Assembly (NCBI GenBank): GCA_025360085.1
Contig: JANYCW010000012.1
Span: 1 to 39,446, forward strand
Reading direction: 5' to 3'
Length of the DNA stretch: 39,446 nucleotides
Source: Actinomycetes bacterium
Lineage (GTDB): Bacteria; Actinomycetota; Actinomycetes; Nanopelagicales; Nanopelagicaceae
The stretch's first letter is position 1. The number at the start of each line of letters is the position of its first letter. The translations under genes and the position numbers were made by a program. Below the pieces are notes generated by a model. That model saw only the letters and a program-made list of their open reading frames with translations. It made no database searches and had not been told where the DNA came from. This document shows positions 15,504 to 31,403 of the stretch, piece by piece.

Positions 15504-16604
15504 GTGAAGATGAAGGCTGCCGTTCTCGATGGTGTTGGAGCTAAATTTCAGGTGCGCGAAGTTGAAATTGATAAACCAAAATCTGGTGAGCTACTTGTCA
15601 AAGTCGTGGCGAGCGGATTGTGCGCAAGTGATCTCAACGCCATTGATGGAAAACGAAAGTTAGTTCCATTTCCCGCCGTCATTGGACATGAAGCGGCGGG
15701 CGTCGTTGTAGAAGTCGGTATTGAGAGTGTAGGTTTTTCTCCCGGTGATCACGTCATCATGTCGATTGTTCCAAACTGCCGGACATGCAGTTACTGCATG
15801 TCCGGGCGCCCCAACTATTGCTCGACCGCAGGAAATGCGATGGCCGCTGGAGGTTTATTTGATGGCACCAGTAGATTGAGTTACGAGGGCACAAGAATTA
15901 ATCACTTCTTAACCGTTGCATCCTTTGCAGAGTACGTCGTCGTACCAGCATCGGGTGCAGTTGTGATTCCAGATGAAATGCCATTGGACCGAGCTGCGTT
16001 GATTAGTTGCGCAGTATTAACTGGATATGGCGCAGTGGTGAACACAGCCAAAGTTAAGGCAGGTTCGCGCGTTGCCGTATTCGGATGCGGTGGTGTCGGT
16101 CTGAATATTATTCAAGGTGCACGCATCGCCGGAGCTAAGACGATCATTGCCATTGATATAACAAGCGAGAAATTAGAGCTGGCGCGTAAGGTTGGAGCAA
16201 CACATACGATTAATGCCTCAAGCACAGATCCCGTGACCGAAGTTAAGAAAATCTGTGGCGGCGTTGACTATGCCTTCGAAGCGCTGGGGCTTGAAGCTAC
16301 AATCCAACAGGCTTGGGGCAGCGTTGATGTTGATGGCGGATTGATATTGGTTGGCCTTTTAAAGAATGGCGCCACATTGACCCTTGATGCCGATCCCTTC
16401 GTTAATGAGCAATGGATAACAGGTTGTTACTTTGGCTCAGCGAACCTGAAAAAAGATGTGCCAAAGTTAATAGAAAGTTATCTAAATGCTCACCTATTCC
16501 TAGACGAACTCATCTCCGAGCAGATAGATTTAGATGGTCTCGATCTCGCCTTTAATCGTTTAAGGGCAGGTGAAGGCGCGCGGAACGTATTGGTCTTTGA
16601 CTAA
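15504..16604 (+). CDS. Zinc-dependent alcohol dehydrogenase (MDR superfamily)
   Basis: The product is 366 aa. Catalytic zinc ligands are visible in GLCASD and GHEAAG. The structural zinc loop is CRTCSYCMSGRPNYC with four cysteines, and the cofactor loop is VFGCGGVGLNIIQGAR followed by an acidic residue (IAIDIT), which favours NAD. It is in the class III / AdhB-like branch of medium-chain dehydrogenases; the substrate is unknown. It follows the aldehyde dehydrogenase after 30 nt, so alcohol-to-aldehyde-to-acid oxidation in sequence is likely. The start is GTG 15504 or ATG 15510, neither with a clear Shine-Dalgarno. Confidence 0.82.
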   Translation: MKMKAAVLDGVGAKFQVREVEIDKPKSGELLVKVVASGLCASDLNAIDGKRKLVPFPAVIGHEAAGVVVEVGIESVGFSPGDHVIMSIVPNCRTCSYCMSGRPNYCSTAGNAMAAGGLFDGTSRLSYEGTRINHFLTVASFAEYVVVPASGAVVIPDEMPLDRAALISCAVLTGYGAVVNTAKVKAGSRVAVFGCGGVGLNIIQGARIAGAKTIIAIDITSEKLELARKVGATHTINASSTDPVTEVKKICGGVDYAFEALGLEATIQQAWGSVDVDGGLILVGLLKNGATLTLDADPFVNEQWITGCYFGSANLKKDVPKLIESYLNAHLFLDELISEQIDLDGLDLAFNRLRAGEGARNVLVFD

Positions 16605-16633: not shown

Positions 16634-16667
16634 TTCTCTTGCAGTCAACACGTGTACTGCAAGAGAA
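16634..16667. repeat. Perfect 12-bp inverted repeat with a nested palindromic loop
   Basis: TTCTCTTGCAGT (16634-16645) is exactly inverted at 16656-16667, with a 10-nt loop that itself holds the palindrome ACACGTGT (16648-16655). No U-tract follows on either strand, so it is not a standard terminator. It lies between the alcohol dehydrogenase and the binding-protein gene, 48 nt before the latter's start, and may be an operator or an mRNA 5' structure. Confidence 0.7.
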
Positions 16668-16715: not shown

Positions 16716-17846
16716 GTGAAGTTTTCAAAAATCACCAGCGGATCCCTTGCTGCAGCTCTCGTTGTTGCGCTTGCGATTCCTGTAATAAGTACAACATCGG
16801 CTGCGGCATCGACTGACTACTCCAAAATCACATCCGCTTCACAAGGTGGTGGCATGGGCGCCTTGGTAGCTGCATGTAAAAAAGAAGGTCAGTTAAACGT
16901 CATCGCACTGCCTCACTACTGGGCAAACTACGGCGACATGCTTACTGGTTTTTCTAAGACATACGGTGTCAAGATAGATGAGGCGAACCCAGAAGGATCT
17001 TCTCAAGAAGAAATCGATGCTGCAGTAACAAATAAGGGCACAAATCGCTCGCCTGACGTCTTCGATATCGGTCTTGCAGTTGCCGTTAAATATCTCAATA
17101 CCGGAACATTTGCACCTTATATGGTTAAAAAATGGAACTACTTGCAGTTTGCATCGACAGTAGATCCAAGTGCACAAGTTACTCCAAACTACACAGGGAC
17201 AATGACAATTGGATATAGCGGAGCACTTGGAACAATCACCACACTTGATGATCTATTGGATCCAAAGTTTAAAGGCAAGATTGCTCTCAACGGTGATCCA
17301 CTTGGTTCATCGGCTGCAATGAACGGCATTTTCATGATTAACAAGGCCCTTGGTGGAACATTTGATGATGTTACAAAGGGAGTTGCCTTTTTTGCTAAAT
17401 TAAAGACTGCCGGTAACTTCATTAACGTTAACCCAACAGAGGCGACAATTGCATCTGGTCAGACACCCGTTGTCATTGACAACGGATACATCCAAGCTGG
17501 AGTCATCAAGCAGATGGCTGCTGCTGGAAAAGTCTGGAAGATGTACACACCAGCTGCCGTTGGCTCTACCTATAACAGTGCAGTTTCAGCGTGGGCTCCA
17601 CATCCAGCATGTGCGCGCTTGTGGTTGGAATACACGCTAGGTGAAACGGGTGCCTCGGTATTTGCATCAGGCGGCGCTACACCTACTTTGTGGATTTGGT
17701 TGTTAAAGACCGGTCGCGCATCTGAAGCTGGTAAAGCCTCTATAGGTAAGAGCAAAATTATTGCCGAGAAGGCAACAGCTGATCAAACTGCAAAGGCTCG
17801 CGTTTACCTTAAGACCGCATGGCCCGCAGCAGTTGGTACGAACTAA
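16716..17846 (+). CDS. ABC transporter extracellular solute-binding protein (family 1, PotD/AfuA-like)
   Basis: The product is 376 aa. The start GTG 16716 has a strong TAGGAGGA Shine-Dalgarno. A Sec signal peptide ends near AAAS (residues 30-33); there is no lipobox Cys. The mature protein begins with GALVAACKKEGQLNVIALP, followed by DVFDIG and LLDPKFKGKIALNGDP, which is the pattern of type 2 binding proteins for polyamines, ferric iron, thiamine or 2-aminoethylphosphonate. It delivers ligand to the permease pair encoded next. The neighbours give two competing hints: amine catabolism upstream and a sugar-acid-type enolase downstream. The gene is bracketed by two strong hairpins, as often seen where the binding protein is made in excess. 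Confidence 0.85.
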   Translation: MKFSKITSGSLAAALVVALAIPVISTTSAAASTDYSKITSASQGGGMGALVAACKKEGQLNVIALPHYWANYGDMLTGFSKTYGVKIDEANPEGSSQEEIDAAVTNKGTNRSPDVFDIGLAVAVKYLNTGTFAPYMVKKWNYLQFASTVDPSAQVTPNYTGTMTIGYSGALGTITTLDDLLDPKFKGKIALNGDPLGSSAAMNGIFMINKALGGTFDDVTKGVAFFAKLKTAGNFINVNPTEATIASGQTPVVIDNGYIQAGVIKQMAAAGKVWKMYTPAAVGSTYNSAVSAWAPHPACARLWLEYTLGETGASVFASGGATPTLWIWLLKTGRASEAGKASIGKSKIIAEKATADQTAKARVYLKTAWPAAVGTN

Positions 17847-17863
17847 TAATAGAGATCAAGTAA

Positions 17864-18781
17864 TTGACTCAACTTCAACACATGAGAACCGGTTCTGCCA
17901 CTGGCAGGACCGGTTCTCGGTATTGGCGAAGTAAGACTGCCTATCTTGGCGTTTTACCATTCTTAATCTTTAGTGGGCTTTTTCTTCTCTATCCAACATG
18001 GAACGTTATCTCTGGTTCGGTTAAAGATACCCATAATAAATTCAGTACAACTGTGCTAAAAGAGGTATTCAACTCTCCTGTTGCGCGCCACGCCTTCGCT
18101 AACTCGCTCGAATTATCAGCTAAAACGGCGATAGTTGGTGCGATTCTAGGCGGACTTTTTGCTTGGGCAATTGTCACTGGAAAACCTGGTGGAGTTTTTT
18201 ACAAAGTCTCTGTCGCCCTAAGCAGTGTGTTGGCACAATTTGGCGGTGTCATGCTTACTTTTGCATTTTTGGCTACCTTTGGTTTTAACGGATTAATTTC
18301 TTCTTTGGCAGTAAAATTCCTTCCGAATACTTTTCTCGCTGACTCAACGTGGCTTTATGGAATGAATGGTTTAAGCGTTCTTTATACATTTTTCCAAATC
18401 CCACTCATGGTTCTGGTTTTTTTGCCTACTTTGGAAAACTTGAAGCCGCAATGGCGGGAAGCATCGGATGCCCTCGGAGGAAAGGCTCATGAATACTGGC
18501 TCAGAATTGGAATTCCAATTCTTACACCATCATTTGCTGGAGCCGCCCTTCTACTCTTTGTAAACTCATTCTCAGCTTATGCAACCGCAAATACTCTCAT
18601 TAACTTATCTGATTTCTTGACTCCTTTAGAAATAGCAACGGCATTAACCAGCGAAACCGGTGGATCCAACCCCGCGGAGGCAAAATCTTTGTCGCTCTTT
18701 ATGGTAATTGTTGTGGTCATTGTCATGGGGCTTTACGCACTGCTTCGTCGCAATGTGAGTAAGTGGGAGCAAAAGCGATGA
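17864..18781 (+). CDS. ABC transporter permease 1 (PotB-like)
   Basis: The product is 305 aa with six membrane helices beginning at about residue 28 (YLGVLPFLIFSGLFLLYP). The ATPase-docking loop is WREASDALGGKAHEYWLRIGIP. It pairs with the next permease. The start is uncertain: TTG 17864, or ATG 17882 six codons later; no later ATG, GTG or TTG is in frame before the first helix. The first codons are built on a 35-nt near-perfect palindrome (17884-17918), which yields the repetitive peptide RTGSATGRTGSR. It lies 17 nt after the binding-protein stop. Confidence 0.85.
   Translation: MTQLQHMRTGSATGRTGSRYWRSKTAYLGVLPFLIFSGLFLLYPTWNVISGSVKDTHNKFSTTVLKEVFNSPVARHAFANSLELSAKTAIVGAILGGLFAWAIVTGKPGGVFYKVSVALSSVLAQFGGVMLTFAFLATFGFNGLISSLAVKFLPNTFLADSTWLYGMNGLSVLYTFFQIPLMVLVFLPTLENLKPQWREASDALGGKAHEYWLRIGIPILTPSFAGAALLLFVNSFSAYATANTLINLSDFLTPLEIATALTSETGGSNPAEAKSLSLFMVIVVVIVMGLYALLRRNVSKWEQKR
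17884..17918 (+). repeat. 35-nt near-perfect palindrome at the start of the permease gene
   Basis: The left arm is GAGAACCGGTTCTGCCA and the right arm is TGGCAGGACCGGTTCTC, separated by a single C. All 17 positions pair if one G-U wobble is allowed. As RNA it would form a very stable hairpin (with some loop opening) covering the first codons of the permease, directly after the binding-protein gene. Confidence 0.8.
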
Positions 18782-19572
18782 AACAATCGCTTGGAGTTCG
18801 TTTGTGGCGCTGGACAATTATTTTTGTCGTAGCGCTATATCTATTGGTCCCTTTGTATGCAATGTTTGATTTTTCTACTAAGCCATTTAGTTATGCCGAC
18901 AAAGGGCGGACATTTCGCGCCTGGACCATGATTGCATCGCAACCAGATCTTGTGCCAGCAATTACTCGCTCATTAATTACTGCCGCGATTGTCATGGCAC
19001 TCATTCTCTTTCTCATTGTGCCAACCGCCATCTGGGTTCACTTGAAACTTCCAGCGCTTCGTCGCCCATTTGAATTGTTATGCCTCTTGCCTCTGGCTAT
19101 TCCTGCAATTGTTATAGTTGTTGGGATTGCGCCACTTTATCGCTGGATTTCAATTAATATTAATGAGTCCCCAATAACTCTAGCTGGCGTTTATTCCATG
19201 TTGATTTTGCCATACACGTATAGATCACTATCTGCGGCGTTGGATGCCGTTGATATTCATACGTTAGCTGAGGCGGCGACAACTTTAGGAGCCACAATCT
19301 CTCGAGTTATATTCGGAATTATTATGCCAACGATTAAGACTGGCATAGTTAACGGTTCATTTATTGCAATTGCACTAGTACTTGGCGAATACACGATTTC
19401 AAATATTCTTAACTTCAAGACCTTCCAAGTTGTCATCGCTCAAATCGGTCGCACTAATGGCAATGTTGCGGTTGCAGTCTCGCTTGCCTCGTTACTCTTT
19501 GTAATTTTCTTGCTTTTAATAATTCCTACTAAAAAGCGTCAAGGTACCGTCCTTGACGTTGACGTCGCCTAA
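18778..19572 (+). CDS. ABC transporter permease 2 (PotC-like)
   Basis: The product is 264 aa from ATG 18778, which overlaps the stop of permease 1 (ATGA); GGGAG lies about 9 nt upstream. There are about six helices, the first at WTIIFVVALYLLVPLYAMF. The docking loop is LAEAATTLGATISRVIFGIIMP. A 5-codon longer GTG start (18763) is possible. With permease 1 it forms the heterodimeric channel of a polyamine/iron-type importer. Confidence 0.87.
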   Translation: MKQSLGVRLWRWTIIFVVALYLLVPLYAMFDFSTKPFSYADKGRTFRAWTMIASQPDLVPAITRSLITAAIVMALILFLIVPTAIWVHLKLPALRRPFELLCLLPLAIPAIVIVVGIAPLYRWISININESPITLAGVYSMLILPYTYRSLSAALDAVDIHTLAEAATTLGATISRVIFGIIMPTIKTGIVNGSFIAIALVLGEYTISNILNFKTFQVVIAQIGRTNGNVAVAVSLASLLFVIFLLLIIPTKKRQGTVLDVDVA

Positions 19573-25848: not shown

Positions 25849-25889
25849 AAAAAAGAGGGCGTGAGAGTTTAATCTCGCACCCTCTTTTT
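25849..25889. terminator. Bidirectional terminator between gdhA and the HU gene
   Basis: AAAAAAGAGGGCGTGAGA, then GTTTAA, then TCTCGCACCCTCTTTTT: a 12-bp stem with one C-A mismatch and one G-U wobble in the plus-strand RNA. The A-run on one side and the T-run on the other let it work for both convergent genes. Confidence 0.85.
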
Positions 25890-31367: not shown

Positions 31368-31403
31368 GTTAAGTAATCCGGAGCGAACTTCGGATTACTT
31401 AAC
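31368..31403. repeat. Perfect 13-bp inverted repeat between two secreted-protein genes
   Basis: GTTAAGTAATCCG, a 10-nt loop and CGGATTACTTAAC. On the minus strand it is followed by an A-rich stretch (AAAATTAAAAT), not a U-tract, so it is more likely an intercistronic processing or stability element than a terminator. It lies 9 nt after the stop of the upstream gene and 44 nt before the next start. Confidence 0.7.

Follow-up and report, generated by a model that had tools for sequence, protein, structure and literature searches.

A conserved, translated hairpin at the binding-protein/permease junction of an ABC import operon in a small-genome actinobacterium

The window analysed here, the whole 39,446-nt stretch of DNA from a small-genome actinobacterium, carries an ABC import operon in which genes for aldehyde and alcohol dehydrogenases are followed by those for a binding protein, permease 1, permease 2 and an ATPase; the gene of an enolase-superfamily enzyme is also part of this operon. 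With gene starts taken from the longest open reading frames, the features of interest are the following.

16716–17846, + strand: substrate-binding protein gene (PF13343, PF13531), which presumably benefits from the hairpin
17852–17870, + strand: weak stem in which 17852–17854 and 17856–17859 pair with 17864–17870, that is, the intergenic spacer with the TTG start and the next four bases
17864–18781, + strand: ABC permease 1 gene, 305 aa, TTG start, with PhnU/CysT-type matches below the curated cut-offs
17884–17918, + strand: near-perfect 17-bp hairpin, arms 17884–17900 and 17902–17918, in permease codons 7–19
18778–19572, + strand: ABC permease 2 gene (PF00528), whose ATG overlaps the permease 1 stop codon
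19591–20640, + strand: ABC ATPase gene (PF00005 and TOBE_2)

A repeat search delimits the palindrome at 17884–17918, with 17 pairs, one of them G-U, 94% complementarity between the arms and a single nucleotide separating them. Folding of the RNA spanning 17800–17950 yields −53.1 kcal/mol (z = −4.15), a stability matched by none of 200 shuffled sequences. The structure scores 41 in a hairpin scan, the highest value among the seven hairpins in the window that score at least 28, and 20 dinucleotide shuffles of the window contain a mean of 0.75 hairpins at this threshold, with a maximum score of 32.5. The repeat search, the fold and the shuffles thus bear out the 35-nt palindrome of the preliminary description, and the codons agree with its reading of the encoded peptide as M-RTGSATGRTGSR. 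None of 20,000 synonymous recodings of this peptide folds as well as the native sequence (−31.0, against −27.2 for the best). The distance to the binding-protein gene had been put at 38 nt, which is close: 37 nt separate the stop codon, ending at 17846, from the stem, which starts at the 38th. No Rfam family is matched in the window at the gathering score.

Other hairpins in the window are recorded here for completeness. Those at 2134–2175, 25850–25889 and 31368–31403 are strong, intergenic and probably terminators, and a 12-bp hairpin, CCGGACATGCAGTTACTGCATGTCCGG, lies within the alcohol dehydrogenase gene at 15779–15805. The hairpin at 16634–16667, upstream of the binding-protein gene, has a core, TCAACACGTGTA, that is kept between arms of different sequence in two of seven relatives (L032 and L034), which suggests that it may be an operator or leader element.

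The 17-bp hairpin lies within the translated part of the permease gene. Across 36 orthologs the position of TTG 17864 is occupied by TTG in 32 and ATG in four, defining it as the permease start, and no in-frame ATG, GTG or TTG is found in the window sequence between the hairpin and the first membrane segment. The preliminary description was right to place the hairpin in the first codons of the gene but took the ATG at 17882 as its beginning; that codon is present in two of the 36 orthologs and is not the conserved start. Relative to the conserved start codon the hairpin begins at +20, near the edge of the 30S footprint, so that it need not block initiation; the throttling of permease translation that had been ascribed to it does not necessarily follow.

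The ortholog set comprises 36 sequences, including the present one, from a search of 135 genomes of the genus, with matches containing the N-terminus at E values of 1.4e-107 or better; a match in G143 was excluded because its N-terminus is missing from the contig. All 36 keep the hairpin, with region energies of −27.4 to −32.7, and a clade of four (G046, G137, G149 and G056) lacks precisely 3 nt in the loop region, so that the reading frame is maintained. G237, which belongs to a different genus of the family (74% identity), retains the hairpin with internal mismatches. Among the 35 distinct rows of the alignment, 98.4% of cells are paired; six of 16 pairs have changed on both sides, accounting for 12 such cells, and five are invariant. 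Neither the paired percentage nor the numbers of pairs and cells changed on both sides nor the covariation score is reached in any of 500 shuffles, while the count of further pair types, reached by 79 of 500, does not beat the shuffles; these figures should not be read as probabilities because the orthologs share descent. When the partner is shifted by one column, pairing drops to 53–56%. An RNAalifold consensus of the same alignment has only 12 pairs, two of them credited with changes on both sides, a low count that is due to the gap in the short clade.

Codon usage in the hairpin gives a consistent picture. Among 31 orthologs of equal length, synonymous differences in same-residue comparisons amount to 0.072 in hairpin codons 8–18 versus 0.554 in codons 41–305, while pairwise residue differences are 0.196 in the hairpin codons and 0.162 in codons 41–305. 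So few synonymous changes in a peptide as variable as the rest of the protein indicate selection on the nucleic acid and not on the peptide. We conclude that the hairpin is selected at the nucleic-acid level and is maintained by compensatory changes. Comparison of related permeases had been proposed beforehand as a means of asking whether the peptide varies while the pairing is kept, and it does; the accompanying statement that the structure forces the amino acid sequence does not survive the same comparison. Conservation of the N-terminus that is due to RNA structure should, moreover, not be taken as a sign of protein function.

Hairpins of unrelated sequence are found at the same junction in distant permeases of the same type (33–47% identity, from the genus and the class). 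Within 110 nt downstream of the binding-protein stop, a hairpin scoring at least 33 is present in 45 of 76 distant loci, against 30 of 4676 control windows from the same loci. Where a hairpin of at least 30 occurs (58 of the 76 loci), it starts at a median of 27 nt after the stop (interquartile range 22–36), and 54 of the 58 start within 0–70 nt. Under a strict definition of placement, in which no start codon may lie between the hairpin and the homologous region, and at a permissive threshold of 24 or more, the 76 loci divide into 41 with a coding hairpin, 15 ambiguous, four with the hairpin upstream and 16 without; RNAfold shows bulged hairpins in several of the 16.

A survey of the stretches around PF00528 permeases in two genomes (that of the window and G015; 473 kb including the window) reveals how specific this placement is. 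Hairpins scoring at least 33 occur at none of 23 permease-to-permease junctions, none of 23 junctions from a permease to another gene, none of six from another gene to a permease and seven of 223 other codirectional junctions. They occur at 17 of 20 binding-protein-to-permease junctions, which amount to fewer than 20 independent cases because some are orthologous across the two genomes (certain for the window and L117, probable for L124 and L112), and at 14 of 17 when three are set aside whose upstream genes, lacking a Pfam match, were called binding proteins by place only. The exceptions are L125 and one of L110, where RNAfold gives a bulged hairpin, and L120, where there is none. In the window itself, the junction between permease 1 and permease 2 is without a hairpin. 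Genes in the binding-protein position with no Pfam match at E ≤ 0.001 lie at L128:6837-8252, L129:2009-3328 and L113:11786-13198; such unmatched genes upstream of permeases are possibly unrecognised binding-protein families.

Whether the hairpin is translated varies with the spacing of the genes: at gaps of 62 nt or more it is mostly intergenic, and at gaps of 17–36 nt it lies inside the permease gene, the coding or intergenic call being affected by uncertain starts at L118 and L121. Intergenic or coding, the hairpin keeps a rather constant distance from the binding-protein stop that precedes it. The common denominator is therefore this stop and not the permease start, which makes the 3′ end of the binding-protein mRNA the likelier site of action.

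Two further transporter families show that the distance from the permease start is not constant. In the first (L111, binding protein PF01547), a coding hairpin occupies permease codons 2–14, starting at about +6. Of the 30 loci fetched, 26 orthologs were aligned, the remaining four differing in length. Paired cells make up 96.2% of this alignment, and 45 cells carry changes on both sides, among them one G-C to C-G swap, where shuffles give 13.5; the pairs with changes on both sides and the further pair types, reached by 46 and 449 of 500 shuffles, respectively, do not clearly beat them. Synonymous differences in this family are 0.302 in the hairpin versus 0.499 elsewhere. In the second (L110, PF00497), a long hairpin takes up the conserved permease ATG in its 5′ arm, and does so in each of the 30 orthologs fetched (L216–L245, around +10 of the match). 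With a stem that starts so early in one family and encloses the start codon in the other, an influence on initiation is at least equally likely in both, and we abandoned the idea that hairpins of this kind never enter the 30S footprint. The third coding hairpin, at L125, is bulged, and its permease was found at E ≤ 1e-80 in the genome of the window only.

The start codon of permease 1 is itself involved in the weak stem at 17852–17870, in which TTGACTC pairs with different upstream bases in different clades. At least five pairs form in 34 of 35 orthologs, G041 being left out because its contig begins too near, compared with 68 of 313 other gene starts. The mean is 6.1 pairs versus 2.6 in shuffles, and 27 of the 35 orthologs taken singly give p ≤ 0.05; the energies over 36 sequences are weak, −0.2 to −8.6 kcal/mol. 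Here a downstream start codon is held in a stem near the upstream stop, as is characteristic of translational coupling, and the stem would probably be opened by ribosomes finishing the binding-protein gene. We regard it as a better candidate for translational control than the 17-bp hairpin.

Import by ABC systems usually calls for binding protein in excess of channel, though one mRNA carries the genes for both. We think it probable, on the comparative evidence, that an mRNA hairpin marks the end of the binding-protein cistron within the start of the permease gene and forms a barrier to 3′ decay that would give many binding proteins per channel. The polycistronic mRNA would be cleaved in its permease part and 3′-to-5′ exonucleases would halt at the hairpin, so that the binding-protein mRNA would outlive the permease mRNA and binding protein would therefore be made in excess. 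Initiation at the permease gene probably depends, via the start-codon stem, on ribosomes completing the binding-protein gene, and ribosomes translating the permease would have to melt the hairpin. Three observations are those expected for differential decay: the hairpin lies at the boundary between a cistron needed in excess and a downstream cistron, no U-tract comes after it, and its structure is conserved in relatives with constrained wobble positions. Protection of the binding-protein mRNA, with unequal expression of the two genes, had been suggested in the preliminary description, and the general placement of hairpins at binding-protein/permease boundaries fits that suggestion. The likely outcome is an excess of binding protein over membrane channel in the cell. 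A wider reading, which we offer tentatively, is that nearly every binding-protein/permease junction in the Actinomycetes has a hairpin some 27 nt after the stop, which permease genes lying close by have absorbed as a translated N-terminal extension; permease translation would then melt the barrier and so influence how stable the binding-protein mRNA is, a feedback by which the ratio would adjust itself through a device written in RNA structure and protein sequence.

The main rival to a decay barrier is partial termination without a U-tract, in which the hairpin would stop some polymerases after the binding-protein gene in the manner of an 'I-shaped' terminator, producing attenuation and not differential decay. 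Such a terminator would have the same junction specificity, in the two genomes surveyed several counterparts carry four or five T among the first 8 nt downstream of the stem, and the U-less structured 3′ ends of Streptomyces clavuligerus transcripts are likened to I-shaped terminators in PMC8269248. The present hairpin, however, has no U-tract, GTATTGGC following it with three T in 8 nt and no run of more than two, and lacks the run of U that comes after the G+C-rich stem of an intrinsic terminator. A stop within the translated start of the permease gene would also have to happen ahead of the following ribosome, and the E. coli counterparts lack both a U-tract and significant Rho-dependent termination in the available portion of PMC5927463. 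On balance we consider partial termination unlikely. Less plausible again is a hairpin that mainly slows or blocks permease translation, at initiation or early in elongation. The stem is strong and close to the start codon, the L111 and L110 families have theirs closer still, and the weak start-codon stem is conserved too; against this, the hairpin of this family starts only at +20, other transporters of the same genome have the equivalent hairpin upstream of the permease gene, and its position tracks the binding-protein stop.

Two readings of the palindrome as DNA can be set against the same alignments. As a protein-binding operator it would draw on two AGAACCGGTTCT-like palindromes in the arms, 21 bp or two helical turns apart, on a 5′ arm that is largely a 12-bp palindrome by itself, and on the invariant pairs. 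Relatives nevertheless lose the inner palindrome (CTGG for CCGG), and the four G046-like sequences shorten the spacing between centres from 21 to 18 bp, while the outer pairing stays, which makes an operator very unlikely; nor do the hairpins at other junctions have any evident shared sequence. Mobile palindromes are known as REP/BIME- and Rickettsia-type elements, and the malE-malF hairpin of E. coli is a repetitive REP element. An insertion that happened to be in frame could account for a palindrome in a coding region encoding a low-complexity peptide, but its codon position is the same in every ortholog and it has undergone compensatory evolution. Since the genome holds a single copy at E ≤ 0.001, where a repeat element would have many, a REP/BIME origin was rejected, and a mobile element of any kind is the least credible of these explanations.

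If the hairpin acts as a decay barrier, comparative evidence alone predicts the site at which the ratio of binding protein to channel is set in abundant freshwater bacteria. The rule that the binding-protein stop is shortly followed by a hairpin, whether translated or not, also provides a simple list of candidate sites.

The closest known system is the intercistronic hairpin of E. coli malE-malF, which, in the available portion of PMC5927463, protects the upstream binding-protein mRNA. In both cases the hairpin sits where the binding-protein gene of an ABC import operon gives way to a permease gene; that of malE-malF is intergenic, whereas the present one is single-copy and inside the permease coding sequence. 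A structure in a coding region had been called unusual, a view contradicted by the several unrelated transporters described above and by E. coli: Dar and Sorek 2018 (PMC5927463, same portion) place 17 of 26 protective hairpins within the coding region of the downstream gene, at a mean depth of 107 nt (±56). The coding-embedded structures described there have no U-tract, are conserved and constrain wobble positions, as does the hairpin in the window, and they were demonstrated by term-seq and half-lives, whereas ours is predicted from sequence comparison. The present hairpin differs further in its position at +20, its 17 pairs with compensatory changes, its occurrence in Actinomycetes and at most of the binding-protein/permease junctions examined, and its accompanying start-codon stem. 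Within the same phylum, the U-less transcript ends of S. clavuligerus share a stable stem without a U-tract but were identified by mapping RNA 3′ ends, in a report whose main text nowhere uses the terms 'ABC transporter', 'permease' or 'coding region' (PMC8269248). High expression of binding proteins, without permease ratios, is described for the acI metatranscriptome in the available part of PMC5574706. Passages from transcriptome papers on Corynebacterium glutamicum and Streptomyces griseus proved irrelevant to the question, and those on genome-reduced freshwater bacteria do not mention operons. A search of open-licence literature listings found no earlier report of such hairpins in Actinobacteria or of the junction rule. 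By analogy, the mechanism proposed here would be of a kind already known from E. coli, including hairpins in downstream coding sequences; what is described here is an actinobacterial, junction-wide form of it, a worthwhile variant because its covariation is strong, a start-codon stem accompanies it and its placement follows a junction rule.
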